Source: Phellopilus nigrolimitatus
Lineage: Eukaryota; Basidiomycota; Agaricomycetes; Hymenochaetales; Hymenochaetaceae
DNA: 64,000 bases
Assembly (NCBI GenBank): GCA_021029095.1
Contig: JAJOHG010000009.1
Coordinates: 930,001 to 994,000 of the forward strand
Direction: 5' to 3'
Each line of letters opens with the position of its first letter. Position 1 is the stretch's first letter. Under the pieces are notes generated by a model that saw nothing but the letters and a program-made list of their open reading frames with translations, had not been told where the DNA came from and did no database searches. Below are positions 1,521 through 63,536 of the stretch, in pieces. The position numbers and the translations under genes are program-made.

Positions 1521-2223
1521 ATGGCGCAGTACTCGACATTTGGCGCTACTCCTGACTCTCCGGGGGATATCTCACAAACGCCTCCGCCAACTGGCGCGCA
1601 AGGCGATCTGGAGCTAGAAATAGTCGGACTGGCGAATGCTCTGTACAATCTTGGCACAACGGTTGTCATAGATTCCACAAAAGAAAGACAATTGGCAAAG
1701 TCAGCAGTCGCCAGCGAGGAAGAGGCTAGCAAACCGGTCGGCCAGAGAGTCAACGATGTCATCGGCCATCTATCTACAATTGAGGACCTGGCTGGAGATT
1801 TAAGAACAATGGTCCCCTTACAGATTCTGCAGTACGTTCACCAGTGGGCAATGTGCAATCTGGGGCGAATATCGTTGATATGTTCGAATGATAGGGATAT
1901 CGATAATGCACGTAATCCAATGTTCTTAACCAAGGACCGACTGGAGCGCGCGGCCACGGAAAACCAGTTTATGAACGGAAAGATTAAAGCCATCGAAGTG
2001 TGTGCCCTCGTTGGTCACTTATTCATGTCAATTTCTCACTTTAAGTGCCGTTCTTCGTGCGCGGGACGTGCTGATGCGCACCCCACTACAGTCTTACCGT
2101 AACACGTTGAACTCATCCTTGATGGATTATTTTCCCGAGCTTGCGCCTCATCTTGATTCGGTCGACGAATATGCAATACCCTCAGTCCTTACTTCAAACC
2201 ATGAGGTCAAATATGAGGTCTGA
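1521..2223 (+). CDS. MED10: Mediator complex subunit 10 (Med10/Nut2)
   Basis: Subunit of the Mediator middle module, which links transcription activators to RNA polymerase II in the nucleus. Three exons fit well: 1521-1843, 1895-1997 and 2092-2223, giving about 185 residues, usual for the family. The family core is clear: an N-terminal helix (LELEIVGLANALYNLG), the VPLQILQYV segment, then DNARNPMFLTKDRLERAATEN, which matches the conserved Y-(I/V)-D-x-x-RNP-x-x-(Y/F)TKD signature, then GKIKAIESYRNTLNSSL and FPEL near the end. ATG 1521 is the first in frame. The first intron is 51 nt, a multiple of three with no stop, so an unspliced message would still be readable but would break the conserved block. 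The next gene is on the same strand, 527 bp downstream. Confidence 0.9.
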
Positions 2224-2750
2224 ATTAGTTACTCGGGAGTAAGCTAGAAACTCGCTCGATCGTTGTTGCCGAGCCCACCCTTTGCTGATGAACAGGCCAG
2301 GCGTTCGCATAACGCGGTTTTCTCGCGTTTCGTCGTGAGCCGCACGTGTTTCTGGGCAGGCGTTAGATATCGTCGGATCCGAGGAACAATAATCTGTTGT
2401 ATGGCAAGCTGAAAGACTAAGTTTTTTAGTGGGCAGACAGGAGCGGAGCCGTTAAATGGTTCGACGAGTAAAGGTTAACTATGCAAGCCTGTACGATTGT
2501 GCCATCTGTATACATAGATAAAAGGAACAACCGACGCTTTATTCATTCTGTTTACACCGAGACCGAGTACTCGTGTCCCTGAGGCAGGATCCGAATTCCT
2601 GATTCCTGATTCCTCGGGAATGTTCGCCAAATGAGGTCATAGCGGTCGTTGCTAGCGACGGTCCGGTCTGTTGCAGCGAAGCGCATTGGTACTCAGCACA
2701 TAAAGACGCGTCGTGTTTGCTTGCTGCTGCTCTATTCGATTGACACTTTG
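2224..2750. other. intergenic between Med10 and Ric8
   Basis: 527 bp holding the end of Med10 and the promoter/leader of ric8. No additional gene or RNA recognised. A GATTCCTGATTCCTGATTCCT direct repeat lies at about 2593-2615. Confidence 0.4.
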
Positions 2751-5180
2751 ATGGACTTACTGGACTCGTACGAATCGTTGTCTCCTTCCCCAATTCGAAA
2801 TGACGTCGCTGCTGCTGTCCTGCGATCTATTATAAACGGTGTGCAGTCTCGTGTCTTTACACGCTATCGGTACAGATCACCAACGATGAATTAGCTCCGC
2901 CTTTCGCTTTCGCACCGACTGAGAGGGACAGACTTGTCCAGCTGCTTCTTAGAGACATCGGAGACAGTATCCAGCGTTCAGATGGAAAAGGGAGACTCCC
3001 GCAGCAGGGTAAGCTCATTTTTAGTGGCCGTCGGACAATTCATATATATGCCGTTTAGATATCGGCCTGGCATTGCTGGCTCTGAAAATCCTAGGACGAG
3101 CCCCTGCCGCTTCAACTATAATCTCGAAAGAAAATGTAAACGGTAGTCACTTTGTTGCTTGCTGCATGCTTTAATTGATCATGTCATACTTTATATACCA
3201 GAATCTCAAGGTGCTCTTAGGCGCGGCAGAAACCCTTCGGGACGTGGACAATGAGGCGGCGGATGATGCTTTGCGTTGTGTTGCGAATGCTCTTTTGCTG
3301 ATCGAGAAGGGGCGCGCAACGTGGGTTAACTTACGAGGCTCAACTCATTGTGTAAATTTGCTAGAGGTGAGTCTTTCATACTCGCCTATTATCTTGCTCT
3401 TAATCAGTGCATACAGAAAACGACATCTCCTACGTGCATATTCCTGTGTTCCCGCATACTCTTTCTTTCTACTGCATCTGCTGCTTCCGAGCTGCTCAAA
3501 GGCCTTCTCGATCATCCTGCGGATTCGACGTCTGGCGGGACACACGACTCCAATGCTCAGCAAGATATAATCAATATAATCTCCAATCAGCTCGACTTCC
3601 TTTTATCCAGCATTCTACAGAATACGCTCATGAGCAAAGAGGCTATGACCGATCTGCTGAAGTTGACTTTCAATCTCCTCTGCCATTGGCCAAAGGTAAC
3701 TGTCCATGCTCGCTATACTCTATTCGAGATTCCCAATCGACCATGTTTTTAGATTGCACCTGATGCCGAAGATTCGAGCCAGGATTCTGGTAATGATGTT
3801 GAACGCGCAACACCTGAGCTCGCCGATGAAGATAGACCGGTACTTGGCGAACGATGGACAAAGCGGCTCGACGGGTTCGTCGAACATTACTCTGACTGTC
3901 AACATCTTTGCTAACTTAACTTTTACATTCTAGAATTCTACCTTCATTACGACGAGTTTTTATCGGTCTACCACCGGTATCGCCAGCACCGTTAGCAGCA
4001 CCTTTAGCTCATGTCCTGCACGCTTTGTTACCGATCCCTGTGAGCGATAGACTTTATTCGGTCTGGTTTCCTGAGCAAGATGTTTTAGGTAAGTTCGCCC
4101 GTTATAGCTGCGTCTAACAATCGCTAATGTTTGTCCAGTATCAAACGAAAGTTCGAACATCGGTTCAAGCAATATCGCAGCTATACCACCGGATACTCAC
4201 TCGCAAGTCTCCTGTGGTTCGGTGTCTTCCACTGGAACAACACTTATTAAAGGGAAAGAGAAAGATGGTGAATTCCGGGGTGCTTTCGATCGCGCATTAT
4301 CTATGTTGACTCCTCGCCTGTCTTTATCGTCTCGCTCACCATCGCCGTCTCCGCAAGTGTCTAAGGAAGCCGAGCTACCGCCAACCACTCCCGAAGTGTT
4401 AAGACGTAGCGTAGAACTTCTCGACATGTCTTTGGCGCATTATCTTCCCGGCAATGTTGACCCGGACGATGCATCTGTCCGACGAATCTGTGTTCAAGAG
4501 GATGTTCAGCTAGATCACGTTCTGACGCCGCTTGTTCTGCTGTTGACAAAATTCTGCAAGTCTAATGTGAGCTGTCGCAAGTGTTTCCGAGAGCATATCC
4601 TGCCGTCGAACCTGTGCGTTCCCAATCATTCTATCAAAGCCTATGGGTTCTAATGCTGCACAGAGATCGTTCGTCATCAATAGAAGGCCGGGCAAATGCA
4701 CTTGGACGATGTGTTAGACTCATGGCTTGCGTCAACCATCCGCAGCTTAAAGATGCAGTCGGAGAACTACTTTTTATCGCTTGTGACTCGGATGGTATGT
4801 GTTCGCAAACTGCCTGGGCGTGCTTCAAGTAACCGTCCATTTCAGCCCAGGCGCTGTCAGGTCAGATAGGATATGGTAACGCCGCCGGTTTCCTCTTCAA
4901 CAAGGGAATTCTTTCTGCGCCGCCGTCTGGATCGTCGAGCGGCGCCTCGGCCGTGACAGATCCATCTGTCAACCCCATCACTGGAATGATCCAACGCGAG
5001 CAGCCATCTGAGCCGGAGATGACGGACGAAGAGAAGGAGAGAGAGGCCGAAAAACTGTTCGTCCTGTTCGAACGGTTGGAAAAGTCGGGCGGTATGGAAA
5101 ACCCTATCAAGAAAGCATTACACGAAGGGAAGCTCGAGAAATATACTGGGCGTCCCAATAAAGATGAGGATAGTGACTGA
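2751..5180 (+). CDS. ric8: Ric8/synembryn, Galpha chaperone and exchange factor
   Basis: Ric8 proteins bind monomeric Galpha subunits, act as nucleotide exchange factor and folding chaperone, and in fungi support G-protein signalling and growth. The gene starts at ATG 2751 (MDLLDSYESLSP) and is cut by several short introns. Armadillo-like helical segments are visible, such as the exon from about 3205 (NLKVLLGAAETLRDVDNEAADDALRCVANALLLIEKG). The C-terminus carries the family hallmark: GYGNAAGFLFNKGIL, then NPITGM and EMTDEEKEREAEKLFVLFERLEKSG followed by NPIKKALHEGKLEKY (about 4860-5150). The end at 5180 is fixed by the last exon. Exact inner splice sites in 3600-4700 are not all certain. Identification is strong from the C-terminal block. 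Confidence 0.85.
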
Positions 5181-5483
5181 AACCGAGGCACAGGACGGGA
5201 TATTTATCTAATATTAATTAATACTTTTTTCATCTGCGTACGCACATAATGAGACTAATCTCGTAGCACATATGTATTTATGACGCTTGAGTGAAATAAC
5301 GACGTTTCCTCAGAATAAGCTCGTCAACAAACTGCTTTTGATGATTCTATTTACAAGTGCAGATATCAAGACAAGATATTAGAGACAATATGTCTACAGG
5401 ACAGCATATGCAAGATAATTAGAATGGCAAACAATAAACAAGCGAAAAACGACAACGCATAACGGAAGAAATATAGACATTAA
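5181..5483. other. convergent 3' intergenic region
   Basis: AT-rich spacer between the converging ric8 and nucleolin-like genes. It should hold both 3' ends and polyadenylation signals; nothing else seen. Confidence 0.5.
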
Positions 5484-7453
5484 TTAAAAAGTCATCCTCT
5501 CTCCCTTGAACTCGACAGCACCTCCAGTGCGAGCTCCACCACGGGGTCCACCACGTCCACCGCGGCCTCCCCTGTCTCCACCTCGTCCCCCACCACGTCC
5601 ACCCTGGTGAAGAAATTATTAGACTTGTAATAGCAAATGAACGAAGATGATAGCTTACTCTGCCACCTCTGTCACCACCCCTGAAACCACCACCGGAACC
5701 ACCACGACCGCCCTGTGGACAGTAACCAGTTATAATCAGTTGTTAAACAGACACAAGAAAAAATACTGACCCATCCGCGATCACCTCCACCACGATCACC
5801 TCCGCCGAAACCTCCACGACCGCGTCTCTCTCCACCTCCACCCCTGCCTCCGCCGCCTTCTGTGCGAGGTTGCGAGAAGTCTAGACGGAGAGGGCGACCG
5901 CCGATCTCCAGTCCCTTCGCACCATCGAACGCCTTCTTCGCTGATCCGATATCCACGAACTCGACGTAGCCAAAGCCCTTGGGCCGTTGCGTTTCCCTAT
6001 CAGTAGGAAGGCGCACGCTTTTAACCTCGCCATACTCCGCAAAGACTTCCCACAAGCCATCCTCCGTCGTGTCAAAGCTGACGTTGCCGACGAATAAAAC
6101 ACTTGACGGCTCACTCGGCACGTCTCCGAAAGCCTTCGCACGCTTCTCAGGGTTTGCGGGTTTCGGCGATGTCTTGTCGATATTGACAGCTCTTCCATCA
6201 ATTTCCTTCGAGCCATTCAAGGCGACAGCTGCGTTCGCACCCTCCATAGTGGCAAACTCTACGAAACCGAAACCGCGCGACTTTCCCGTATTCCGATCCA
6301 TTTGTACACGAGCAGAGACGACCTCGCCGCAATCGGCAAACTCGGTCGCGAGCCAGTCATTATCGACGTTCCACGACAGCCTCCCAATAAAGCAAGTCTT
6401 AGATTCTTCTTCTGAATCCCCCGACGGAGCAGCCTCCCCAGAAGCTAGCTTGACTTTTTTTGTCGGAGCCTCAACGACTTCATTGGCCTTACGCTTGCCT
6501 TTGTCTACGATCAGAAATAGAACTTGATGCAATGAATTCGTACTCACCATTTTTCGCAGTAACCGCAGTATCAGTCATCTCAACGTCCTTGCTTTTTTCC
6601 TCAGAATCATCATCGGATGAATCGTCGGACGAATCATCTTCACTAGATTCAGCAGACTCAGCCTTTTTTGCCTGCTTTTCAACAGCGGGCTTCGCTTCCT
6701 CGTCCGAGCTATCGTCTGAGTCGCTATCATCTGAGTCGCTGGTGTCTTTGCCCACCGCCGCTTTTGTTGGCGAGGCTTTCACGGGCACTGATTTTTTCGG
6801 CTCATCATCGTCCGACTCCGAGCTGTCAGAGCTTTCACTACTTTCTTCTTTGCTCGCTTTTTTAAGGGTAGACTTGACCTGCGCAGCCTTCGGCTTTTCG
6901 TCTTCAGACGTCTCGTCGCTGTCGTCCGAATCAGACTTGGACGAAGGCTTCACCAATTAACCTGCGTATAAGCAAACGATTATGACTTCGTGAAACTGCC
7001 AACACACCTTGGACGTATTGCCGTTGGCCTTTGGTACAGGCTTTTCCTCTTCGGAAGATGAGGACTCGTCGGATGAGTCGTCATCGTCACTGCTGCTTTG
7101 GGCCTTTTTGGCCTTTGTCTAACAATGAAGATTTTAACAATTACGTTTTTCTCGAGACGATACGACGAGCACATACTGCAGCTGCCTTCCTGTTGACCTT
7201 GATCGGCTTCTCACTTTCCGACTCGGACGACTCCTCGGACAATTGCTTTTTGAGGATTTTCTCCTTTTTCGAAGGTTTCGACTTGCCGTTTGCAATCTTC
7301 TGGTAAATGAAATAAAAATTTGGCCCGGAGCTGCGAGAAAATATGGCATACAGCTTTGGGCTTCGTAACAATCTCCTTCGCAACAGATACCACCACTGCT
7401 GACTTTTTCTCCTTTACATCCTTGCTTTTGACTTTGCTGTCAGATTTTCCCAT
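5484..7453 (-). CDS. nucleolin/Gar2/Nsr1-like nucleolar RNA-binding protein
   Basis: Likely acts in the nucleolus in pre-rRNA processing and ribosome assembly, like S. pombe Gar2 and S. cerevisiae Nsr1. Start is MGKSDSKVKSKDVKEKK at 7453. The N-terminal half alternates lysine-rich stretches with long acidic serine tracts (DSDDSDSDDSSDEE-type, 6956-6489), typical CK2 substrate regions. Two RRMs follow: RRM1 has CFIGRLSW and KSRGFGFVEF, RRM2 has LFVGNVSF and RPKGFGYVEF. The C-terminus is an RGG box split by short introns (about 5860-5500) and ends in GAVEFKGERMTF. Domain order and size match the nucleolin family. Acidic tracts are spread over several small exons. The start is divergent from the Rab escort gene, 224 bp away. 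Confidence 0.88.
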
Positions 7454-7677
7454 TTTTGCAGAGCGAAAATGGAAGGGGGTGGGTAATGATGGGAGGAGGG
7501 AAAGGGATCGAGAGCGAGAGTTGTAAATTCTGGACGTGAAAAACTTCGTCCAAAAACCCCAAATAGGAAGGAAGCAGCTGGTCACGAGACAGCGTCCCAA
7601 AGAGTATGTGTCGATCCCAGTGCCGGTGCGGAATGCATCATCACACTGTCTATCATCACACTGACTATCCATCCACA

Positions 7678-9512
7678 ATGGATTTGGAATCGCATTTCCA
7701 CGTGCTCTTGTTAGGAACAGGTCTCACTGAATCCATAACTGCAGCGTAAGCCTTTCTGTTTCTCCGCTCGTCTATTTCGCTGGCTTATTATTTTGCAGTG
7801 CACTTGCCAAAGCCGGCTTCAAGGTCGTGCATATCGATATCAATTCCTACTACGGAGCCAGCGAAGCCAGCTTGACGACCGAAGAGCTCAAAACATGGAT
7901 CGAGGCTTTCTTGAAGAGTTCTGATAGTGTCTCACCATTAGCATCAGTACATGGGGAGTCACCGTCTTCCTCCAGATCGTATTCGTTGTCTTTGTCGCCA
8001 TCAGTGTTCGCCTCTACTGGGCCCTTCATTACTTCTCTTATCGGTTCCGGAGTCGCTCGTTACGGTGGCTTCAGACTTCTTGAGCGTACCTGTGTTTACT
8101 CTGCGGCTGGTTTCAAGAGTGTTCCGGGAAGCAAAGAAGACATTTTCAAATCCAAGGAGCTATCTCTTGTGGATAAAAGAAAGCTCATGCGCTTTTTGAC
8201 CTTTGCTTCAGGAGATTTTGAATGCTCTTCTGAAATCCAAGGCAGAGAATCTATGTCGTTCTTGGAATTCCTAGAGGAAGTCTTCTCCATCAATAAGCAG
8301 CTCGCCTCTGCTCTTACATATGCTCTCGCCTTCTGCAGTACTAGTTCTGGTGCGTATCCTCGAACTATTTTAACAAAATCAATGAGAACGTCTCCGGAGC
8401 CTTTCACACATTAGATACTATCATACCCGCATTGACTCGAATAAAGCACTATTTGCGCTCGGCAGGGCGATATGGCCCGTCACCATTTTTGGTTGGTCAG
8501 TACGGGGGCTTGGGAGAACTTGCTCAAGGATTCTGCAGGTGAAGACGATGATCTGCTTGTGCTACAGATTTATGGAGACGTCATTCATGCTTACAATCAC
8601 TTGCAGAGTATGCGCAGTATCTGGTGGGACGTACATCCTCGGACACGACATACTTGCCTTTCAAGAGGCTAATGCAGAGGGCGTGACGAGTCATTGCCTG
8701 AATCTCGGAGGAATTCCCGAAAATCTTACAAGTGATATAATCATTGTCTCCTCTGATCTCCTGTCCAAACTCAAGAACGAGGACGGGGCTGACCTCGAAG
8801 GTCATTCGTCAGAGGGATCTCACATAGCACACTGCATAGCGATCATCGATGGAACAATCGCTTCGCTTTTGACGCAGCAAGCTGCATCCGAAGAAGGACG
8901 CACAGAAGAAACCGATTCGGTGGACGTTGATGATGGTCAAGCTCGAACCGTCGATTCTGCTCTACTAGTATATCCCCCAAACGTGCTATCTACCGGGTCA
9001 GCGCAGTCGCCCGTCAACGCTATAATTAATGGTGAAGGCACTCTGTCTTGTCCACGCGGAAAGAGTATGTCGTTTATATCGTCTTACATGAATTAAAATG
9101 CTGGCGCTTACCGAAAAACGAGTAAGGTCTACTGTATCTGTCCACAGCTATGGATAAGAACACTTCGGACCGGCAGAACTCAGATGCAGAGCGTCTTCTC
9201 CGTCCATACCTGGATGCGACACTGTCGTTGGCTCGCACCACGGATGCCTCAACCCCTAAAGAGCTTTTTAGCGCGTTTTATGTGAAATCGAGTCGTACAT
9301 TCTCAGCTCCTTTCTTGGATTCCTTTAAGCAACGCGATATATTGGTATGCCCTTCTTTACCTTCCCATTTTGCGGAATCCGGCGATGCCGCTGCTGTCTA
9401 TGCGGAGGCATTGTTTCGGGAAACGGCGAAGCATTTAGGAAGGCTTGACTTCGAGAGTATGGATTTTTGGCCTCCTTTGCCGATGGACCCTGATGACGAA
9501 GACATCTCCTGA
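7678..9512 (+). CDS. MRS6: Rab escort protein (REP/Mrs6)
   Basis: REP presents newly made Rab GTPases to geranylgeranyl transferase II and shares the GDI fold. The N-terminus reads MDLESHFHVLLLGTGLTESITAAALAKAGFKVVHID followed by NSYYG, the GDI/REP dinucleotide-like motif with the conserved tyrosines. Later segments are KLMRFLTFA, SMSFLEFLEEVF, then FLVGQYGGLGELAQGFCR and CAQYLVGRTYILGH, the conserved GDI/REP core. The protein is longer than a GDI and has an acidic variable insert (about 8790-9000), which favours REP over GDI. The first intron follows the GTGLTES exon. The last exon runs 9150-9512 and ends in an acidic DPDDEDIS tail. Converges with the DUF2433 gene. Confidence 0.82.
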
Positions 9513-9775
9513 AGAGGATTATACTTTATAAGCGTATGTAATTCGATGCAGCGTATCGGTCGGGCTTCATTTGAAAATTATCTGCTATTCGACTGATTGC
9601 AACAAGGAACCAACATATCGCATATGAGATGAATACAAAGTAAGTTCTCAGCCCTCAGAAAGCCACGAAAGAAAACTCAACGCTCAAACCAGACGTTGCC
9701 CTCGTATACAGAAGGCGGCGTCGCAATAGACATAAGGATGAAAAGATGTATGAATTAGCATTATATAGCATACGC

Positions 9776-12172
9776 TCAGCTCTCTTTCGATGTCGTTGAA
9801 TCCCCGTTCAACTTCCTGTCCGACTGCTGTCTCGTCAGACCTGCGGCGGCAAACCCCCGCGCAGCAAACCCGCCACCCCTCCCCCGACCTCGCCCACGGA
9901 AACCTCCTGAAGAATTCGGCTCGCGGTCTTCCGCTTGAACGATATATGGCACATTGTCTTTCAGTTTCTGAAGTGATGTTTAGTTCCCCGCAATATATGA
10001 ATTCAGGAGTCAACAACATAGTTTTACCTCTCCATGTCTTTCCAGACCCGCCCTCATAGATTCTTCATCCCCGAATTCAACGAAGGCAGTTCGCGTTGCC
10101 TTGCCATAGTTCTGCGGGAAGTGCACGCGAACGATCTGTAAAAAAAGGTGGATGAGCATAGAATCTCAAGGGCATACATGATTTTTGGGATACATACGCT
10201 ATCCGCTGCTCCACCGAAAAACTCCTTCACTTCAGACTCTGTGGCTATTACTGAATACCTCATAAACAATGTCCACGGGTTTCTAGGAGGCCTCTTAGAC
10301 GTCGGAGTCTGAGCGCCAGAGCTTTCAGGACCAATCACAGGGGAAGCAGAATTCGCGCTCCAGTTTCCCCTTTCGTTCGTCTCAATCGGCGTCGCCTTAC
10401 CAGAAGGAGGGGCAGACGACTGAGCAGCCTTAGACTCGGACGAAGGGTTTGTATCGTCAGAGGGCGCACCCTCTTTATCCTTTGCGTCTCGCTTCTCTTT
10501 TTTCTTCTCCTTCTTGCTCTTTTTATCGCCGGTTTCTGTAGGGCTGGACAATGCGGCATTTCCGTTGAGCTTAGGAGCCTGAGCTTCCTTCGGTGCCTCC
10601 TTTCCTGAGCCGGGAGCTGAAGGATGCTGGGTCTTGGGCAATTGTGGTGGTGGAGTAGGAGCGATTGATGGACCGCTGGACTTGGGAGCTAAAAGTGGCT
10701 GAGGTTTCGTCGGCGCAGGCGTACTGCTAGTCGACGTCGGAGCAGCGGCGACGTTGTTAGGTAGAGCAGAGGTTGTAGAGTTAGGCGTGGAACCCGAGTT
10801 TGCAGTACGACGATAAGCATAGTTAAAGCCTTTTTATACGAGTAAGTACACCATATGAATGGAAAGAAGTGAACACATACCTTGGCTCTTGAGTTCAGCA
10901 CTGACCCTGCCTTCCTTGACATCTAAAATCAAAGAACCGTATGCGGCATCGCAAAGATTCCAATTCCAACAATTCTTCCACGCAGGCTCATCACCAGTCG
11001 CTGTTCCTCCAGGGCCAATATGGGGTTGCATAGCAGGCACCCTTTCAATAACACTCAGGGCCTTCTCCAACAAAATGCGCTGATTTTCATCCACGACCGC
11101 TTCGACCTGGGGCTTCACGCTTTCCCAGATCTTATCGAAGCTATCCTTACCACTCATAATCTTGTGGCGGAAACCTTCGAAGTCACCCTGGACGCTGAAC
11201 TCGTTCCATGAGCTTGTGTAGCGAAAATGCAATCCGGCGGAGATGGTAAGGTCGGCTTTAAGGATAAGCGCAAGCTGGGCAATAATGCCTTCGCGTCCTG
11301 GGCTCGCGTGAGTAACCAAAAGACGCGTCTCAGTGGGGTCATATACACGTTGCGCCGTATCGACGAGCTCTCCAATCTGCAGCGCGGTTGTCCACATCGT
11401 GCCTTGACCGCCAGCAATAGTCGCATTGCCATCGCCATTGTCAAACATCTTGTGCGGGACAAACGCCCCACCCAAACCAAGAAGGCGAAGCTTGACACCA
11501 CCCACGTCGAGGCAGCGCGTCGTTGCTTCGTCAATGACATGGAGATTTTCAATATCATACGTTCCTTGACGGAACTTTTCGAGAACTATGACGTCCTCAC
11601 AAGCGCCCCAGACCGTGAACACCGGCACACTAAGCTTGAGCTGGCCGGATAGTAGTAGCGGAAATTCCGACAGTAGGGAAATGGTCATAGCGGCACGTAT
11701 GACGGCTGGTGGGGTCTCAGGAGAGAGGAGGGAGCCGCGCTGTGCGTTCGGGATTAAGGGCGAATATTGAGTGAGGTGTTTGAGAGTACGATCGTTGATG
11801 CGTTCCAAACTTGAAGATTCTGTAATCGAGTCAGTAAGGATTAAAGGGTTTTTTAGAGAATAAAAAAGAGAGGCGAAAACGATCGCTCGGAGTCGCAAAG
11901 TCGACTGACGCCCGACAGGCGCGTTATGAATGAACTCGTAACTCACCAAAAAAGCCGAAGTCACCCGTGTGGATGATGGCCTTCGCCCCAGCCTCTCTTG
12001 CCATGTCGTTGAGACTTGAGAGACGGCCACGCACGTCTGCGATGCATAGTATGCGACCAGAAACGGTGTCGATGACCTTAGTTTGAGTATTAACCTGGAG
12101 CGGCTGCGTTCTTGGTAAGGGAGAAGCGCCCGGCCGAGTCGAGGACGAAGCTGTTCGAGTGGCAGATTGCAT
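9776..12172 (-). CDS. DUF2433 phosphoesterase-like protein with RRM and RGG tail
   Basis: Fungal family with a calcineurin-like (metallophosphoesterase) fold; function not established. Start MQSATRTASSSTRPG at 12172. The N-terminal domain reads GRILCIADVRGRLSSLNDMAREAGAKAIIHTGDFGFF, then SSLERINDRTLKHLTQYSPL, VFTVWGACEDVIVLEKF, RLLGLGGAF, GGQGTMWTTALQIGEL and RLLVTHASPGREG. Usual metal-binding signatures are changed: D-x-H reads DVR and GNH(D/E) reads GACED, so classical phosphatase activity is doubtful. A disordered Pro/Ser/Lys-rich linker follows (10,900-10,350). Then comes an RRM-like domain (RNPWTLFMRYSVIATESEVKEFFGG .. IVRVHFPQNYGKATRTAFVEFGDEESMRAGLERHG), then an RG-rich tail (GFRGRGRGRGGFAARG) ending in STTSKES. 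The RRM suggests RNA binding. Divergent from Med13. Confidence 0.82.
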
Positions 12173-41231: not shown

Positions 41232-41318
41232 TGACCACCGCAGGTCTCGAACCTGCAATCTCCTGATTAGAACATTAAGAATTCGTAGTCAGACGCGATA
41301 CCATTTCGCCAGGCGGCC
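41232..41318 (-). tRNA. tRNA-Arg(ACG) with 15-nt intron, copy 1
   Basis: Cloverleaf reads from 41318 down: acceptor GGCCGCC pairs with GGTGGTC, discriminator A. The A-box is TGGCGAAATGG-like and the B-box GGTTCGAGACC. Anticodon loop CTACGAA gives ACG, reading CGU/CGC arginine codons after A34 to I34 editing. A 15-nt intron (41268-41282) sits at the usual place, one base 3' of the anticodon. Exons are 36 and 36 nt; the mature tRNA is 72 nt before CCA. Confidence 0.92.
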
Positions 41319-42264
41319 TATGCTGAGCCATAATCTCATTAGCTATTAGTGTAACCATCCGCCTGCAATTTGTCCGTACTTATACGCATTGCGCACCGTA
41401 ATTCGAGCTTCGTCTTCTCTTACTCGAATTACAGAGTTTTCTCCCGTCTGTTTTCTACTATTGAGTTACAAATTATGAATTACAGCATACCATATGACTA
41501 ATCTTACTCTGGTTTGATAAAATTCTTTGTGAACAGCATAATTTCCCCGACTTTACACGTTTGCGGCACAAAAGTTAGAGCCTGGTTTTCTTCCTACCAA
41601 TGTTCTCCTGTTAAACGCACCTCAACCAGCTTTTTCATAGTTTTAACCACGCTTTTTTCAGTGCTCAATCCGCATGACGTGGGTTCATCGCGCAGTGTCA
41701 GGGTACTAGTACAACTTGGCACAAGTTTCGATCTACGTGCTAATCCAAACCTTTCGGAGATTTTCAAGTCTTTTAAGGCTACACCGCGTAAGATTTGATT
41801 CCTCCTATTATCTTCAAACACCTTCCAGGTGGACATGCACTAATTATCGTGCTTCAAGATATGCACTAAATTGACGGGATTCGCCGATAATATGGAACGT
41901 AGGTATCTCATGGAATGTTTCGCGCGATTTCCAATCTTGCAGAATGTGGAGTTTGGCTTAGTCCTGACGACGACTTCCCGGACAACTTTACGGTACTCTC
42001 GTTTGACCTTAAGTGAGGTATAATTTATATATACAAATAACATATGAAATATCATAGCTAAGTCTAACACATGATGCTCTACGGGCCACATTCAGCAAGA
42101 ATGCAATGAAGATGTCCGGGAAGGCACCTGCACTTCATCCTCTGAGAGAAGGGGGACCGAACATCACTCATTCTCTCCGGTAGGAAGTCCGGTAGAAAAG
42201 CACGCAGTGCTGGTTCATACAAGCCGTAAGGAAATTCACCGCTTCCAATTGACAAAATAACAAT
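41319..42264. other. spacer between tRNA-Arg copies 1 and 2
   Basis: About 950 bp with no recognisable gene. Open frames at 41514-41798 (+) and 41840-42091 (-) have no family resemblance. Confidence 0.35.
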
Positions 42265-42336
42265 GGCCGCCTGGCGAAATGGTATCGCGTCTGACTACGA
42301 ATCAGGAGATTGCAGGTTCGAGACCTGCGGTGGTCA
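42265..42336 (+). tRNA. tRNA-Arg(ACG), intronless, copy 2
   Basis: 72-nt tRNA identical in mature sequence to the other two copies as far as I can see (acceptor GGCCGCC/GGTGGTC, loop CTACGAA, B-box GGTTCGAGACC) but with no intron. A TTTTGTTTTATTTTT stretch follows directly and should act as terminator. It is convergent with the DUF6697-like pseudogene. Confidence 0.94.
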
Positions 42337-42904
42337 TTTTGTTTTATTTTTATTTGAATTATTATAGCCCTCAGCATAAGCTTTTGCCATCGGAAGCAAC
42401 GCCTTCATCCACCAGTCTTTTGTTGTATCCATTATAGGCAGGGCTATCGAGGCAGGTTTCTCTACGATACATATACCTTGTACGTCGACCTAATATACTT
42501 TGGTACCAGCTACGAATAGCTAAGCTACGGAATGTGTCATTGCTCTTGTGCGTTGGTACTTGCAAAAACAACAAAAATATCAAAAAATCACGCAAAAAAA
42601 TTGCTTCATACGTACAGTAAGAAGGAAAGGGAGCGAGATGCGTTTTCGGATTTTGTTTTCTCTGGCCTTCAGCTCAGGACGTGTTACAGAATCACGTGTA
42701 GCCGACACGCTACGTGTTGTGCGGAAGTTCGAACAAGGTGGCAATTTCTGGATTCCACACTCTTTTGAATGGTCATAACATACTAGCATCAAGACTATAA
42801 TCAATGGGCATATATGTAATAGTCATTCTTTAACGCCATCTTGGACCCCTTCGATTCATACCACTGCAGGGAGGTTGAGAGGCTAAATCTGTTCGACTAA
42901 ACCG
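42337..42904. other. intergenic between tRNA-Arg copy 2 and DUF6697-like pseudogene
   Basis: About 570 bp, AT-rich. Small open frames on both strands show no family resemblance. Confidence 0.35.
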
Positions 42905-53900: not shown

Positions 53901-55447
53901 GAGACTGCACTGTCGGTGTTGACGCCACCGTCGACGATATATCGTCATCCTTAGGGGCCGGGCCAGACTTCTTTTTTCGACTGGCATAAACCACTTTCTT
54001 GGGCTTATCGACCACTGCATGCTGCAGGCCTTCAATAAGCACGCCGGATGCGAGAAGGGCCTCCTTGCGTCTCTTGGCGGCGGCAAGTTCATCTTTCTGC
54101 TTTTTGGTAAGGAGGCGACCTTCTTTCTTTGCTTGCTCGCGTTTTTGCTGAAATTACAGATGAGCTATGTTCGAAAAGAACACAACTCGAAGCTTACCTT
54201 CTCCTTTTCTTTTTTTCGTGCTTTTTCTTCCTCTCTTCGCTTTGCCTCTTCTTCCGCCTTTCTCTCTTCCTCCTCGATCCTCTTGCGCTCTTCCTCCTCT
54301 TTCAATCTTGCTTCCTCCTCAATCCGTCTCTTCTCCTCCATCATCGCTTTCAGTGCGCTGATCCCACTCGCTCCCTTTTTCTTTCCAGCTGCTGGTGCTG
54401 GCGCCGGTTCGTCTTCTTTCTTCGCCTTCTTTTTCTTCTTCTTCTTATCAGATTTGCCTCCCGCGGCTGCACCAGCGCCATCTTCGTCATCTTCATCGTC
54501 TTTCGCCTCCTCGGCCGTAACTGCAGCAGCAGTAGCGGCGGGAGACGACACAGCAGCTCCTTCATCAGCAGCATCACCCGTAGTGCCTCCCTTTTTCGCG
54601 GCTGCTTGGGCCTTTTTCTTCATCTATGAGATAGAACTGAGATCTACACGTGAACATGAGAAAATGCAAAACGCGCGCACACCTTTTCACGCTCTTTCTT
54701 GAGTTTCTCCTTCTCTTTTTTCGAGAGAACTTTAGCGCCGGGCTCACTAGCCGGCTCGTCATCGTCTGCCAAATCGTCCGCAATTGCGACAGATTTCTTC
54801 AACTCCTCAGTATCCCCGGGAGGCCTGGCCTGCTCATCCTCTTCTGCATCGACTTTTCCCTTCTTGCCTTTCTTCTTCTTTCCGCCCTTTTCCTTCACAG
54901 GTCCCCACTCTTCATTGGCGAGCTCATCGGCAGTCATCATCGGAGCCTTCTTCGGGGCGCTGATGTCGCCATTTGCGGCGGCGGCCTCCGTATCTGAGCC
55001 TTCGCCTGGACGCGGGCCATTCGCGAAGGAAACGGAAGCAACCTCGTCCGTATCGGCGAAACCGCCTTTCTTGGATTTCTTCTTTTCCTTCTTACCCTTG
55101 GCTGAAGATGCTTGGATAGCCGCCTGCGATCATAACCGTTATTATAGTAGTGGACCAAAGAGATAGTAACGTACCATTAAACCACCAAAATCCTCCTCGT
55201 TCTCCATGTCTACGTCACCTGGGTCTATGCCTAGCGCTGCGAAGCCACTTGACCCTTCATTCTTCGACACAAACGCATCATCTTTAGGAACACCTCCAAC
55301 GTCTGTCAAATTATTTCCAGCGACCGGTTCGCCTGCATCCGCCCTAGACGATGGATTCAGGGACAGATAAATCATTGTCAAATGTGTAGCTCACCAGAAA
55401 TCATCGTCCTGCTTCTTGCCCTTCTTTCCCTTATTTTTCGGTGCCAT
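50926..55447 (-). CDS. FUN12: translation initiation factor eIF5B (Fun12/IF2 homologue)
   Basis: GTPase that joins the 60S subunit at the end of initiation. Start [18 protein letters not shown] at 55447. A very long charged N-terminal half is built of Lys/Glu tracts, including a coiled coil of [15 protein letters not shown] type at about 54,300-54,180 and a [15 protein letters not shown] patch. The GTPase has [36 protein letters not shown] and ALNKIDRLYGW. Domains II-IV follow: [56 protein letters not shown] and [31 protein letters not shown] end. The final residues depend on whether a short last intron is used: stop at 50926 if spliced, 50934 if not. Confidence 0.92.
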
Positions 55448-55660
55448 TTTTGGGTGTTTTTCTTAATTTATCAGGACTTGTTCGTTAACGAGAGGGCGTG
55501 AACGACGTCGTGGCGGCGGCGAAACTCGCCGTTTGCACGGTCAGAGAATCGGCACCGGTGTGACATGTATGTGACTATGTATGACTAATTTACGCCAGTC
55601 TGTGCTGTGCTAATCTCGGCGTGGTTGAGCTCCGTGCACCTCGTCGGAGGTTCCGAGAGG

Positions 55661-57684
55661 ATGGACGATGAGCTCCGTCGTCTGCGCGAAGACAATGCTC
55701 AGCTTCGTAATGAGCTTCGAACAGCTCGTACTAGAATTAAGCGCTTGGAACTTGAACAAGAGCGAAACAAGGCTGATCGCACTATACTGGACAGACAAGT
55801 GCAGGAGTTGCTTCAGCATGCTGCAGATGAGCAAGCCGAGTCGGAAACTACTGTAAATGTAGGGCAAACGATAAATCTGCGCTCTGCGACGCCAGCAAAA
55901 TTTATAGCGGACAGCAAGGAAGAGGTGAGAGTCTACATTATTAGTATACTAAGTTCCATTCAGCCTACCTTATTCCAGAATAATAAACAGACCGATCTTC
56001 AGGACAAGCCGAACACTGCAGGGACAGAACCTGCGTTCACCCCTCCATCTAGTACTGTGAGCAGGAAATACGCAAATCTGGTCTAGTTAATAATTGTCCA
56101 TATAGACCCCAAGCACGCTCATAACCCCCGACGAACGATCATCTAAAATTACCACGCGGTCAGATGTGAGAGATCGATGTTCGAAGTTCTTTCAATCTTT
56201 AATCTCCCAACTGTACAGCATGTTCCGTCGTCATCTAAAGCACTGGAGCTTGTGCCAGAGGTCTTCGTCGTCTACGACAGCAATGACGAAGTAGATGAAC
56301 TTGAAAATGATATCATTGAGATTGGAGACGCACAGCAACCAAAGTTCGCTAGCAAACCAGAGGATATAGTCGGGATTATAAGTGCATTTTTTTCTGGCGG
56401 GAATGCTGCAACTACTTTAAATCCACCGACCGCATCTGATTTTCCAACTGCACAGAGGAAGATAGGCGGGCCCCGAACAAAGCAGACTGCGCGTAAGTCG
56501 ACCGGTGGAACGCCTCCCAAGATAAAGAAACTCAAGCAAAATGTGGAGCTGCATAAAAGGAACCCCTTTTTCAGCAAGCTTGAAAACGTCCGTCTCTGTC
56601 TGCTTCCTCCTTGCCCTTCCGCACACTAACAAGCTCCCGCACAGCCTGCTATCAGGATCACAGTGAAGTCCGAAGCCATTCGTCTCCCAGAAGACACGGT
56701 GTACGCTCGTCTTTGCCATTTGGGTGATCCTGTATACCGAGTCACTGCGCCGGAAGCACTGACCAGGCGTACGACCACACGTGAATTTTTAAGCAGTACA
56801 TTTGGGGGAAACAAGTATGCATTCGTGCAGCGTCTGAATCCGACACATAAAGCTAAACACGGATACTCCCACTTCCTCTGTCCCAACCTTAACACGGACC
56901 CGCACGCACCTCAAGTCCCTGGCGCCCACGGGCTGCTGTTCCGATCGGAGGAGGATGACGACCTGCTCATGGAAGACGGCGAGCGAAATCAAAAACCTCA
57001 CAAAGTGATTGCTGGGCTAGGACCCAATTTGTGGCTATATACCGGCGATTACGAGCTTCAAGAGTCTGAGTCCCTGGCGCCTGAGCAATGGGGAGCTTTA
57101 CCACAAAAGGTTGTCTGCAAATTACATCGCATTTTCCTCCCGCAATTCGCTTATCTTCTTTACAAGGCGCGGGATAAATGGGCTATGAGCATCGTGAAAG
57201 CGAAGGCTGGCCCTCGCGCTCAAACACGCGCGTCTATCGCTCTCAGACTTCAAAACAAGTGTGAGCCGTCGACATCGCAAATTAAAAACATGGTTAAGAC
57301 AAAGGGCGGCGCCTGGAATAACATCAAGCCAGAAGACGTCAAAGGTGCTTTTCAACGAGGGGAAGAAGTAAGTAAACTTGGATTCTTTATCTACCGTATG
57401 AATTAACCAGCTCCCGATATTTCTAGCGAATAAATGTTTTGGTTATGAAGTGTGTCGGTTACGATGAGGCCTTCCAACAGAAGCTCATCGACGGGCCCAA
57501 GGCTCGACTTGATTACGTCGATAGTTCAAAAACACCTGATCTAGATGAATCTGACCAGGACTCTGTACTTGACGAGGATGTCGAACGGCATTCGCCAGAC
57601 TCTCGGGCGTTCAAACGAGCTCACAGCCCTTCTTCGCATCAAGAAGATAGGCAGCCTCATCGTAGACGCCTAGCACTTTCATAA
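55661..57684 (+). CDS. DUF6697-like protein with histone H3 tail mimic (copy 1)
   Basis: Function unknown; layout suggests a chromatin- or SUMO-linked protein. Exons line up phase-consistently. E1 55661-55924 holds the coiled coil MDDELRRLREDNAQLRNEL. E2 is 55979-56056, then a short E3. E4 (from about 56219) contains VFVVYDSNDEVDELENDI, a SUMO-interaction-like motif, and further on GGPRTKQTARKSTGGTPPK (56465-56524). The core follows: YARLCHLGDPVYRVTAPEALTRRTTTREFL, HGYSHFLCPNLN, PHAPQVPGAHGLLFRS, LWLYTGDYELQE, RASIALRLQNKCEP. The last exon begins with INVLVMKCVGYDEAFQQKLIDGP and ends in an acidic then basic tail (HRRRLALS). A 57-nt stop-free stretch (57,111-57,167) sits where copy 3 has an intron. 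213 bp from the divergent eIF5B start. Confidence 0.75.
56474..56509 (+). other. segment encoding RTKQTARKSTGG, identical to histone H3 residues 2-13
   Basis: Read in the frame of exon 4 of copy 1. Preceded by GGP and followed by TPPKIKKL, compared with A before and KAPRKQL after in histone H3. So lysines equivalent to H3 K4 and K9, and Thr3, Arg8 and Ser10, are all there, but K14 is replaced by Thr. No histone fold follows, so this is not an H3 gene. Confidence 0.9.
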
Positions 57685-58048: not shown

Positions 58049-59990
58049 ATGGACGATGAGCTCCGCCGTCTACGCCAGGACGATGCTGAGCTTCGCAGCG
58101 AGTTTCAGACAGCTCATAGTAAAATAAAGCGGTTGAAATTTGAGCAAGATCGTAGATTATTGGACAGACAAGTGCGAGAGTTACTTCAACACGCCGACGC
58201 CGAATCGGAGGCAGCTATAGCCTTGGCGCAAGCAGTAGCTCAGTACGCTGTGTCATCAGCTCCAGCTCTTACCGATGCTCAGCAAGAGGTGTGTTTTTCA
58301 CCCTTATAGTACTATATATCATTCAGACTGCTTTTTCAGAAGGATAAGGCCAATGTCGAGGAGATGCCGAATAAGGCTTTCACAGAAGCAGGATCCGCGC
58401 CCATTCTTTCATCTAGAACTGTGAGCAAAACTGCGCAACTATGCTACACTTAATTGAGGATCCATCTAGGCACTGAGCACTGACAGGGGATCAGTCATAG
58501 CCAAGTCTTCCCCGCAGTCTGATGTGAGAGTTTTTTCTAAGCTTATTTCAATCTAAAACTCCTTTTTTCGATACAGCTCAGCCAGTCATCGTCTAAGGCT
58601 CTTACAATTGTGCCAGAAGAAGTAACCATCGACGACAACAGCAACGAAATGCAAGGAATTGAGAATGCTACGCCGGAAACTGGAGGTACACAGCAACAAG
58701 GGACCACCAGCAAACCCGAGAATAAAGCCGCAAGTTCCTCAAATGCATATTCTACCCACAGTAGTACTATCAGATCTATTCTCTCGCTTACGCGATGGCC
58801 GAGGAAAGTACAAGCGAGGAAGTCGACTGGTGGGCGTCTTTCGAGGGCGAACAATCAGGCGTGGTTCCTCGAAGACCTTGTTAATGTCAGTTTACGCTTG
58901 CTTCCTCCATTCTCTCCCGCACTTGACGAGTTTCTGTACAGTATACCATCAAGGTCAAAGCCAATCCTCGAGCCATTCGTCTTCCAGAAGAGACAGTTTA
59001 CGATTATCTTCGCCATTTTATGGATCCTGTATACCCAGTCCCTGCGGCGGCAGAGCTGACTGGACACACGACAACGCGTGAATTTCTAAGCAAAGCATTC
59101 GGGGGAAACAAGAATGCATTCGTGCAGCGTCTGAACCCGTCACATAAAGCTAAACACGGATACTCCCACTTCCTGTGTCCCAATCTTAACACGAACCCAC
59201 ATGCACCTCAAGTTCCTGGCGCCCACGGGTTAATATTCCGATCGGAGAATGACTATGGCGTGCTCGCGAAAGATTCCAAGCGAAACCGAAAACCTCACAA
59301 GGTGATTTCTGGGCTAGGTCCCAATATGTGGCTATATACCGGCGATTACGAGCTTCAAGAGTCCGGATTCCTGACGCCTGAGCAATGGGGAGCTTTACCA
59401 AAAAAGGTTGTTTGCAAATTACGCCGCGTTTTTCTCCCGCAATTCGCTTATCACATTTATAAGGCGCGGGAGAAATGGGCTATGAGCATCGTGAAAGCGA
59501 AGGCCGGCCCTCGCGCTCAAGCACGCGCGTCTATCGCTCTCAGACTTCAATACAAATGTGAGCCGTCGACATCGCAAGTTAAAAAAATGATCAAGAGAAA
59601 AGGCGATGCGTGGGACAACGTCAAGCTAGAAGACGTCGAAGGTGCTCTTCAGCGAGGGGAAGAAGTAAGTCTTGGTTATTTTATCTATCGCATGAATTAA
59701 GTAGTTCTCCAAAACTTTAGCGGATAGATGTTTTGGTTATGAAGTGTGTCGGTTACGACGTGGCCTTCCAGCAGAAGCTTATCAATGGCCCCGAGTTTGG
59801 AGGTGACTTCGTCGATAGTTCAGACGCACAAAATTCAGACTCATCTGATGGAGACTCATCTGATGGAGACTCTGTATCTGACGAGGATGTTAAACAGCAC
59901 TCGGCAGACTCTCAGACCTCCAAACGACCTCACAGCGATTCCTCGGATGAGGAAGAGACACAACCTCCTCTAAAGCGCATCGGACTTTGA
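58049..59990 (+). CDS. DUF6697-like protein with partial H3 mimic (copy 2)
   Basis: Tandem paralogue of copy 1 with the same exon plan. E1 reads MDDELRRLRQDDAELRSEF. Short exons follow (KDKANVEEMPNKAF.. and ALSTDRGSVIAKSS..). The linker exon has LTIVPEEVTIDDNSNE, a weak SUMO-interaction-like patch, and VQARKSTGGRLSR, the K9 half of the H3 tail. The core is YTIKVKANPRAIRLPEETVYDYL through HAPQVPGAHGLIFRS, LYTGDYELQESG and RASIALRLQYKCEP. The last exon has IDVLVMKCVGYDVAFQQKLINGP and an acidic tail with DSSDG repeats and PPLKRIGL. In the core and 3' exon, nucleotide identity to copy 1 is very high by eye, while the linker is diverged. No frameshift seen. Confidence 0.75.
58814..58834 (+). other. 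segment encoding ARKSTGG, histone H3 residues 7-13
   Basis: In frame in the linker exon of copy 2. The context PRKVQARKSTGG aligns with PRTKQTARKSTGG of copy 1 with one residue deleted, so the K4 half has been lost and the K9 half kept. Confidence 0.85.
59838..59867 (+). repeat. two perfect 15-bp tandem units in copy 2 tail
   Basis: Unit GACTCATCTGATGGA twice, followed by GACTC. It encodes DSSDG twice in the acidic tail and is absent from copy 1, so it arose after their split. Confidence 0.8.
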
Positions 59991-60628: not shown

Positions 60629-62919
60629 ATGAGCGACAACGTCCTGCGGCGTCTGCGAGACAAGAACGCGCGACTCAAGCTTCAAGTCCAACGTCTAACA
60701 TTTGAGAACAAACGCATCAAAGCTGACCGGGATGTATTGGAGGAGCAGGTGCAGAGTTTCTTCCAGCGTGCCGCTGAGACAACGCGGAGTACAACAGCAC
60801 AATCTGGAGTCCAAGACCCTAAGCCTGAACCCGTTGAACAAGAAGTGAGTCTTAAGTACTTTCTGTATGACGTGTTGTCTTACTACTTGACTTTAGTTTC
60901 GTGGAGAACAGGACGGGAAGCTTAATGTAAATGATTTCCAAGGCATCGATGATAGCGAGGTTGGAAACATTCATGAAGGGGAGCCAAAATTACCCTCTTC
61001 ATCTGACAATCACGATGTAAGCTCAAGCCCAGGTAATGTGTCTTCTGTGTGCTTATCTATATTTTCCTTCCACGAAGGTTCAAAATACGAATGTACTGGT
61101 CGATGAAAAACCTATGAAATCCAGTCCCTTTCCCCTCAAAGTAAGCGAATCTGGCTCGCACTAATTAATGTATTTCCTGAGCTTGATTGTATTTAATTCA
61201 ACGTACAGTCGCCGCCTCTTCCTGAACATCAGGGGCCAGAGGCTATCGTAATAGACGACAGCGAGGATTCCCGCAATAGAGATCAAAATTCGAATGTGCC
61301 ACTGATCGACGAAAAGCCTCCGTCTCAGACAGTAAGGAATTCTGACATACATTTTATACGATTTCTGACATCAATCTCCTCGTATCTTTCTTCATCCACG
61401 TCTACTCAGCCCACTTCGGACGTTATTGTCGTAGACGACAGCGATGACGAGGTCGACGAGCTCAGTGAGGACGAGAACGTTGATATTTCACCCGTTCTTG
61501 TCGAAACTGTACGCGATGCGGACGTTCGCGCCCATGTTGATCATACCGCAGGTTTTCAATCTCAGCCCGCTTCCAAGCCTGATCAGCCAGAAAGGGGGAC
61601 TGGCACGATGACGAGAAAGGTTATTAGGGAAGAAACGGCGATTACACGACCCGCCCTTCGCTTCCAGTCACAATCGACAGCGTGTAGGTATCGATTTGTT
61701 GTTTGTCAACGCGGACACTTAGTTAACGTTATGCTCAGCTGGTCTTGACAAGACGACGTTTCTCAAGAAGCTTGTCAATGTTTGTCTCATTCATTTCTTC
61801 GTTTATCTTGATCATCCCATCTGATACGAGCCATTTTCTAAGCCTAACTATAAAATAAGAATTAAAAGCGAGGCCATGCATCTTCCGGCTGATGCAATCT
61901 TTGATCGCCTGCGATATCTTGACAATCCAACTTACCCCGTCACTGCACCACCAAGGCTTACAGAATATGTCTCGACGCGTAAACATATCTCAAATACTTT
62001 TGGAGGGAATCAGTATAACTTTATTTCCCGCCCCGATGCTTCCAAAGCTGAGGAACATGGATATACCCATTTCTTGTTCCCCAACTTAAACATGAATCCA
62101 CACGCACCCCAGTTTCCCGGCGCTCATGGATTGCTTTTTCGTTCGGGTATGGACGACGAAATGTTTGCCCAGGAGGAAGGAAAGAATGCTCTGGGTAAAG
62201 GAGAGCCACACAAAGTAATTGTTTGTCTGGGTACCAAGCACTACATCTATGTCGGTGATTACGAATTCGAGCGCCCTGAGCCGTTGTCTATTGCGCAATG
62301 GGAGGCATTACCGGAAAATGTAAGTTCCGACACACTATATAAGTTTGCTTGCTTACCCTTTTCTCTTTTTCGATGCAAGGTGCGCAAGAAATGGGTTGAG
62401 AAGATATTTGATTCGAGGACAGGACTACGCGCCCTGACGCGTGCATCCGTTGCTCTCCGCTGCCGGAGCGTGCGCGAGCCGACTATCCTGGAAGTCCGAA
62501 ACTTAGTCAAGACTAAAGGACGGCCATGGAAGACTGTTACTTTGGAAGACATCAGAAAGGCCTTTGATCGCGGCGAAGAAGTACTGATTTGCCTGTGTGT
62601 CTTTATATATATATATATGCTAATACGTGTCTCACATTTCTAGAAAATCATTGTCTGGGTCATGAAGTGCGTCGGTTACGATGAAGCTTTTCAGCAAAAA
62701 CATATAGATGGCCCCCAAGTTCGTGAAAACGGCGATGCCGCGCCTGGGAGAATCGATGACGTTAGCGAGCTCGCCAGCTCTGATGAGGACGAAGGGCCTC
62801 CGAGACCGGCTACGAAGAGCGCTAAACGATCTCTCACTGAAGATCCGGATTACCGGGATACAGAGAAAGCCGCCACAGAGGATAGCCCGCGTCCCCTTCA
62901 GAGGCTTCGCACGCGATAA
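60629..62919 (+). CDS. DUF6697-like protein (copy 3)
   Basis: Third intact member, the most diverged of the plus-strand three. ATG 60629 (MSDNVLRRLRDKNARLKLQVQRL) aligns with the starts of copies 1 and 2; the frame is open further upstream. The linker has more exons and two SUMO-interaction-like patches, EAIVIDDSEDS (about 61,240) and SDVIVVDDSDDEVDELSEDE (about 61,420). No H3-like motif is seen; the equivalent part reads GTMTRKVIREETAITRP. The core reads HLPADAIFDRLRYLDNPTYPVTAPPRLTEYVSTRKHISNTFGGN, then HGYTHFLFPNLN, PHAPQFPGAHGLLFRS and IYVGDYEFERPEPLSIAQWEALPEN. Next, after a genuine GTAAGT intron, come VRKKWVEKIFD and RASVALRCRSVREP. The last exon gives KIIVWVMKCVGYDEAFQQKHIDGP. A tRNA-Arg lies downstream. 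Confidence 0.75.
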
Positions 62920-63245
62920 ATCAATGCATACAATCAATGCATATGTTAGGCTCGCTCTGCAGTGAGACATGGTTCCTTTTGCTTTGTATCTTGATGTATT
63001 CACTGATTCCGACCTCAAACATCTAAAACCGTAAATTTCTCTTCCCTTGTACTACTGTACCGATGTCTGCTGATTTCGTTCCCTGTGTGCATGTGTATGT
63101 TCGTCGTTTTAGTTTAGTAGCTATCCTGTAACCAGAAAAAATGTCAAGAGTATTGTACACTGTTCAGGTCGGATACGGCGAAAGAAAACTGCAAGTCAAT
63201 GACGAATGGAGAGAGAAAGAGCAGAAAAAACAAGAGAAAAAAATA
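62920..63245. other. convergent spacer between copy 3 and tRNA-Arg copy 3
   Basis: No gene. At its right end an A-rich tract (T-rich on the minus strand) forms the likely Pol III terminator of the tRNA. Confidence 0.45.
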
Positions 63246-63331
63246 TGACCACCGCAGGTCTCGAACCTGCAATCTCCTGATTAGGACATTATGAATCGTA
63301 GTCAGACGCGATACCATTTCGCCAGGCGGCC
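63246..63331 (-). tRNA. tRNA-Arg(ACG) with 14-nt intron, copy 3
   Basis: Same mature 72-nt sequence as the other two copies, read from 63331 down. Intron of 14 nt (63282-63295) one base after the ACG anticodon; its sequence is related to but not the same as that of copy 1. A strong T-run follows on the minus strand. Convergent with DUF6697-like copy 3. Confidence 0.93.
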
Positions 63332-63536
63332 ATGAAATTAACTGTACCTTACCTTTTCTGATTCGGCTAATTTATACTTACCATATTGGGGACATCTTCG
63401 TCCACGTTTGGTTAGCAAAGGATCGGCGAAATTCTTCTCGAAGTCGCCTAAATATCACATAGCGACATGAAATGCTGCAAATTCGATCCACTCATTCTCC
63501 TCTGACAATACCACATCAGCAAGGCTAGCTACCCTC

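Follow-up and report, generated by a model that had tools for sequence, protein, structure and literature searches.

Phellopilus nigrolimitatus is a wood-decay fungus in which a gene for a non-histone protein encodes, in frame, a segment identical to the tail of histone H3. The question is whether this segment was captured from an H3 gene, has been selected as a mimic of the H3 tail, or has no mimicry function, and, if it is a mimic, which chromatin factors it might engage. The species is described as saprophytic with a genome of 56.7 Mb (PMC10410303). We searched a genome of 56.4 Mb in 635 contigs; the window, that is, the whole 64,000-nucleotide stretch of DNA analysed, spans positions 930001-994000 of contig C625, and the positions below are those of the window unless a contig is named.

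An H3-like segment in a DUF6697 protein

The segment RTKQTARKSTGG is translated from positions 56474-56509 (+ strand) and is exactly identical to histone H3 residues 2-13, as the initial annotation had stated. A search of the 64-kb window with the back-translated sequence, at a tolerance of 3 mismatches, gave this match alone, none of 100 shuffled sequences gave any match, and 12 exact residues would be expected at about 2×10−16 per position (equal residue use assumed). The view that the match did not arise by chance is thus upheld. The segment lies in the fourth exon (56219-56587) of a seven-exon gene on the + strand, hereafter copy 1 (55661-57684), the other exons being 55661-55924, 55979-56056, 56106-56165, 56645-57109, 57167-57367 and 57427-57684. 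The spliced model, with GT-AG introns, encodes 564 amino acids and is identical over its whole length to NCBI DFH11DRAFT_1304899 of P. nigrolimitatus, and therefore the peptide is within an annotated coding exon. It occupies residues 220-231 of the product, in which K222, R226, K227 and S228 are equivalent to K4, R8, K9 and S10 of H3. When the PDB was searched with the whole copy 1 protein (E up to 1), all 25 sequences found were histone H3 tail peptides, which align from residue 219 or 220; the best E value (0.22) is weak because H3 peptides are short. Just upstream of copy 1, lysine- and glutamate-rich exons are found on the opposite strand (54000-55450, −), which we take to resemble the N-terminal part of the translation factor eIF5B.

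The H3K9-like sequence sits in a protein for which the Pfam scan gives a DUF6697 domain and no histone fold. The domain (PF20411, residues 306-501; 56789-57492, +, with two introns inside) scores 170.8 bits against a curated cut-off of 23.9 bits (E = 3.5×10−50) and covers positions 1-176 of the 177 of the profile, which also matches all seven aligned paralogues or fragments (E up to 1). Because this domain is present, the protein is not the orphan that it was first taken for. A chromodomain is absent from the Pfam scan of the copy 1 protein, the NCBIfam scan gave nothing meaningful, and a PDB profile search for relatives of the DUF6697 domain returned two sequences that are not meaningful (best E = 0.67). 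Protein searches matched Phellopilus proteins alone (1, 1 and 3 hits), two of these searches having scored just the candidates that share most words, and a scan of viral contigs gave 15 pattern matches and 0 relatives. No paper on DUF6697 was found in the literature searched, which included few subscription journals.

The predicted structure begins with a long helix at residues 2-67 (55664-55861, +), with a mean pLDDT of 80-91 for residues 1-60 and 49 for residues 61-70, in agreement with the coiled coil proposed in the initial annotation. The model was built from three sequences and is poor overall (mean pLDDT 43.8, pTM 0.26). Its pLDDT is below 50 over residues 123-401, a range that takes in the linker and the beginning of the DUF6697 domain, and this is consistent with a disordered linker. 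A SUMO-interaction-like patch had also been proposed; it corresponds to VFVVYDSNDEVDELEN at residues 149-164 (56261-56308, +), N-terminal of the mimic, and is no more than a pattern match, as are the comparable patches VIVVDDSDDEVDELSE and IVIDDSEDSRNRDQNS of the paralogue copy 3.

The position of the segment bears on which half of it could be read. It is internal (residue 220 of 564), and a proline stands where H3 has Ala1, so that the N-terminal Ala1 of an H3K4-type mimic is missing. Binding to most K4 readers requires a free Ala1. The K4 side is therefore less likely to be used, and the case for mimicry toward K4 readers (PHD/WDR5) is weak. The position also raises an autoinhibitory or pairing role, in which the mimic would bind a DUF6697 domain, in the same protein or in a sister protein, and the domain would be an H3-tail reader. 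Between the end of the mimic and exon 5 lie 26 residues, and 74 lie between it and the Pfam match. The sequence searches gave no solved relative of DUF6697, which leaves room for a reader function, and a comparable arrangement is reported for Swi6, the HP1 protein of fission yeast, in which an internal H3-like sequence acts as an auto-inhibitor (PMC7192584). However, nothing positive speaks for binding of H3 by DUF6697, and the structure model gave the first part of the domain no confident fold; we regard this role as improbable.

Relationship to the H3 genes of the genome

The region is represented on a second contig, C333. One stretch of 4178 bases is 97.1% identical to the window, and a separate stretch of 311 bases that holds the mimic is 93.6% identical. 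Because it is near-identical to the window, C333 is probably the other haplotype of the region. Near its edge, the mimic of C333 is unchanged in all 12 residues, and its two differences in DNA are silent. An assembly chimera between the window and an H3 gene, which the initial annotation had named as one finding that would undo its claim, is therefore unlikely and was rejected: across a region that is 94-97% identical, the peptide is the same although some of its codons differ silently. Around the mimic, C333 also differs in length from the window copy by single bases at several places; these interrupt the frame at the contig edge and may be sequencing errors at the contig end or mark a dead copy. 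A second, diverged mimic unit is found on C333, 72 bases after the first (90% identity over 21 bases; L048:262-380). It reads APKTFISRKSTG, and its similarity to H3 is not clearly above that of shuffled sequences, 101 of 2000 of which reach it; because of this second unit, the mimic may belong to an expandable repeat.

To what extent the segment resembles the H3 genes at the DNA level was examined with a histone search of the genome, which found 32 places; 20 of them were retrieved, and some loci are overlapping windows on the same genes. Five H3 gene loci (L001, L002, L003, L004 and L006) read ARTKQTARKSTGG followed by an intron, the splice site being deduced from the sequence, and so the match in copy 1 equals that first exon minus Ala1. 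This agrees with a capture of H3 coding sequence, in which H3 exon 1 or a reverse-transcribed message would have entered a DUF6697 ancestor at its linker. Copy 1 would have preserved it and copy 2, which resembles a partial version of the mimic, would have lost parts of it; the peptide might or might not be used. However, the window mimic differs from each of the five H3 genes at 7 bases, which fall in 7 of the 12 codons and are all silent, and the C333 mimic differs from them at 8 bases. Among 20000 random encodings of the peptide, about 13% are as close or closer to H3 than the window mimic (P = 0.13) and about 27% than the C333 mimic (P = 0.27), although uniform codon use makes this a crude control. 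In the H3-like loci L010 and L011 (on C99 and C157), the tail is interrupted after ARTK, so that exon 1 is not delimited alike in every H3 gene, and over the nine codons of QTARKSTGG they differ from the mimic at 7 (P = 0.56).

Thus, the mimic is no closer to H3 in its DNA than a random recoding, and its protein has no histone domain; both results are contrary to what an H3 gene, an H3 pseudogene or a chimera would show. Because 7 of the 12 codons differ silently, a recent capture of the H3 exon is unlikely; as a candidate it found support neither from the five genes nor from L010 and L011. The lack of a DNA trace of H3 leaves an ancient capture with the protein sequence held, or convergence. 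Two further observations stand against a capture. The local alignment of copy 1 to H3 does not stop at the exon border but gains another identical residue, P16, beyond it. In addition, RKV occurs at the position aligned with the mimic in both copy 2 and the more distant copy 3, which points to a stepwise change and not to an insertion, although the alignment is short. On balance, we consider a capture unlikely, yet it deserves more weight than any of the other alternatives weighed here.

Some other histone-related places were also seen. The five H3 genes and L010/L011 represent two different tail intron patterns in this genome. A 44-residue H3 tail query (E up to 10) found at least 15 places. 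Apart from H3-type loci and the C333 mimic, the matches listed include one at C334:26598 (E = 0.44, 40% identity); the list is incomplete, since the window copy itself is not on it. The locus L014 (C79:143794-143967) is histone-like, with KKATARKSTGGRPP before the histone fold, and is possibly the centromeric H3 variant.

The DUF6697 array and conservation of the K9 core

Copy 1 belongs to a tandem array. Contig C625 has six DUF6697 places in a row (contig positions 986789-1001746, neighbouring pieces merged) and C333 has five (651-12077), a possible copy-number difference between haplotypes. Two tRNA-Arg (ACG) genes are found in the window, at 42264-42337 (+) and at 63245-63332 (−), the second inside the array after copy 3; ARAGORN also gives an odd tRNA at 41232-41318 (−). 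When 26 DUF6697 loci of the genome were searched in six frames for TKQTA or ARKS, these motifs were found only at L022-L025, which are copies 1 and 2 on both contigs. Copy 2 (58049-59990, +) has seven exons and encodes 539 amino acids in our model, with ARKSTGG at 58814-58834 (+) after PRKVQ, aligned to the copy 1 mimic; its K9 core is kept, and the K4 part was lost or was never there. Copy 3 (60629-62919, +; nine exons and 596 amino acids, also our model) is without the mimic and reads TRKVIREETAI at the aligned position. In local alignments to the H3 tail, the copy 1 linker scores 67 (0 of 2000 shuffles as good), that of copy 2 scores 42 (4 of 2000), and that of copy 3 scores 19, which is reached by 611 of 2000 shuffles. 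The order from copy 3 through copy 2 to copy 1 fits a stepwise gain of the mimic, but a full mimic that later decayed would explain it almost equally well.

The NCBI models of the two paralogues begin late in comparison with ours. The copy 2 model P0002 (285 aa) starts within our fifth exon and misses four upstream exons, and thus omits the one with ARKSTGG; the copy 3 model P0003 (306 aa) starts within our seventh exon and misses six. The longer model of copy 2 is supported because dN is lower than dS in each of the seven exons in the comparison of copies 1 and 2. In the same comparison, dS is 0.35 and 0.20 in the DUF6697 exons and 0.88-1.57 in the N-terminal exons. Such far lower divergence of the DUF6697 exons suggests that the domain part of the array underwent gene conversion.

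In exon 4, 39 of 103 aligned residues are identical between copies 1 and 2 (dS = 1.35, dN = 0.57). Within ARKSTGG all 7 residues are kept and the three changed codons each encode the same residue, whereas at the other 96 positions 32 residues are kept and the codon changes comprise 17 silent and 64 replacement ones. Fisher's exact test gave P = 0.012 for silent versus replacement changes and P = 0.0008 for kept versus changed residues, and column shuffling of the alignment gave P = 0.017 for the longest identical run; these P values are optimistic because the block was picked after being seen, and the comparisons concern one genome and few sites. A path-averaged count gives one replacement step inside ARKSTGG, from a two-base change of an arginine codon. 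Between C625 and C333, exon 4 shows 12 silent and 16 replacement differences, of which both differences inside the mimic are silent (10 silent differences lie outside it); 6 of the 16 replacements adjoin a gap of 70 bases in the alignment and could be artefacts. Because copy 2 keeps ARKSTGG and its codon changes are silent only, these results suggest that selection may act on the K9 core (ARKS) rather than on K4.

It could still be argued that the segment has no mimicry function, a low-constraint basic linker having drifted there or the gene being on its way to loss. The linkers of the family diverge fast, as the dN and dS of exon 4 show, and C333 has frame interruptions near the mimic. Such an origin is, however, difficult to reconcile with the tiny per-position expectation for 12 exact residues, with the silent-only codon changes in the block, and with the excess of dS over dN in every exon, and we give it a small probability. 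The initial annotation had left the choice between capture of H3 coding sequence and strong selection for mimicry; from the codon comparisons, selection appears better supported, and a recent capture finds little in its favor.

Candidate partners and known histone mimics

The reading that we prefer, tentatively and with somewhat less than an even chance of being correct, is that the copy 1 mimic is an H3K9-like docking site for HP1 that depends on methylation and lies in the predicted disordered linker. It starts from a peptide that is encoded in frame within an exon and is found on two contigs, from the silent-only changes, from the K9 core in copy 2 and from the candidate writer and reader loci described below; methylation, binding, location and a phospho-switch are predicted from these. 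A Clr4/DIM-5-type (SUV39-type) enzyme would methylate K227, and an HP1-type chromodomain would bind the methylated lysine and tether the copy 1 protein to heterochromatin. Phosphorylation of S228, the equivalent of S10, could release the HP1-bound protein, in the manner reported for the neighbouring threonine of the G9a/GLP mimics. Self-association through the coiled coil may produce a multivalent docking site, to which the SUMO-interaction-like patch may add a second contact.

Candidate loci for the writer and the reader can be named in the genome. Pre-SET gave two equal-scoring matches, on C1 and C356 (E = 6.8×10−17), and the one on C1 is followed further on by a SET piece (E = 8.7×10−10), which makes it a candidate K9 writer of the SUV39/Clr4/DIM-5 type. 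Partial chromo matches (E = 1.1×10−5 and 8.8×10−6) are found 0.6-0.8 kb from chromoshadow pieces on C46 and likewise on C224. Alone, these chromoshadow pieces have E values of 1.43 and 3.45, and the cut-off of 22.4 bits was passed only by the C46 piece together with its neighbours (25.9 bits), so that an HP1-like gene split by introns is weakly supported at these places. No chromoshadow match was found in the genome at E 0.001; at E 10 there are 42 rows, 40 of them on chromodomain places and 2 on the HP1-like locus, and no HP1 was found in the three regions inspected out of five fetched for it. With the kept ARKSTGG of copy 2, the candidate writer and the weak HP1-like locus, the K9 half of the proposal that the segment could engage K4 or K9 factors is favored, whereas the K4/PHD half is weak for the positional reasons given above.

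Chromodomains outside HP1 should also be considered. There are 119 Chromo matches in the genome; 12 loci were fetched, and both of the two that were scanned with Pfam carry integrase domains beside the chromodomain. Many of the 119 are probably chromovirus integrases, because they lie in long open frames. A chromodomain at C625:928362-928511, about 1.5 kb upstream of the window, lies in an open frame of 1181 amino acids and probably belongs to a retrotransposon integrase. Tandem genes of variable copy number are common in conflict families, and the DUF6697 genes, at six places on C625 and five on C333, are of this kind. Together with the abundance of such chromodomains and the nearby example, this would fit a decoy role, in which the methylated mimic occupies integrase chromodomains and blocks or diverts their targeting to chromatin; the chromodomain of MAGGY is reported to bind H3K9me2/3 and to target heterochromatin (PMC3350952). 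However, a decoy that acts by stoichiometry would trap HP1 too, and the probability that we give to this role is low. Even more doubtful is its extended form, in which the tandem family of the host would have built the exact H3 tail from R2 to G13 stepwise between paralogues and the K9-methylated product would titrate or redirect the integrases.

If the preferred reading of a docking site for HP1 is true, the copy 1 protein would be a new player in fungal heterochromatin, or, under the decoy reading, in the contest with chromodomain retrotransposons, and the DUF6697 family would gain a chromatin hypothesis. The carrier does not belong to the established heterochromatin machinery. In addition, with a full mimic in copy 1 and a K9 core in copy 2, capture and stepwise convergence as origins of a mimic would be testable within one gene array. 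To our knowledge, most described cases of histone mimicry concern animal chromatin proteins or pathogens, and their motifs span only a few residues. In the literature searched (titles and the beginnings of abstracts, with few subscription journals), there was no description of the copy 1 protein or of a fungal H3 mimic of this length.

The closest parallels are found in four known systems. The motifs of G9a and GLP are self-methylated sites in methyltransferases, short and of the ARKT type. They are reported to bind HP1 once methylated, the binding being blocked by Aurora B, and copy 1 is similar in having a short internal H3K9-like segment with a phosphorylatable residue beside the lysine, for which methylation and HP1 binding are predicted (PMC9768651). 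Copy 1 is different in that its carrier is a fungal DUF6697 protein and in that the identity extends over 12 residues. As in Swi6, a fungal chromatin protein, the H3-like segment is internal, whereas the mimic of Swi6, as reported, is within HP1 itself (PMC7192584) and that of copy 1 is in the linker of a protein whose Pfam scan shows no chromodomain. ADNP shares with copy 1 an ARKS in a non-histone protein, which contributes to its HP1-dependent localisation; however, its motif has four residues only and is within the homeodomain, and a methylated ARKS peptide is reported not to have bound HP1, and ADNP is therefore a warning for the docking-site reading (PMC3022755). The mammalian EHMT interactome includes many proteins with H3K9-like linear motifs; these are motif-level matches from a derived pattern, and the accessible part of that report mentions no 12-residue identity such as that of copy 1 (PMC10611923). 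H3K9 mimicry as such is thus already a known kind. Within this genome, copy 1 has the full mimic and copy 2 the core; in the rest of the 26 DUF6697 loci scanned, apart from the counterparts of these two on the second contig, neither TKQTA nor ARKS was found. The 12-residue length of the copy 1 mimic and its DUF6697 carrier appear to be new.
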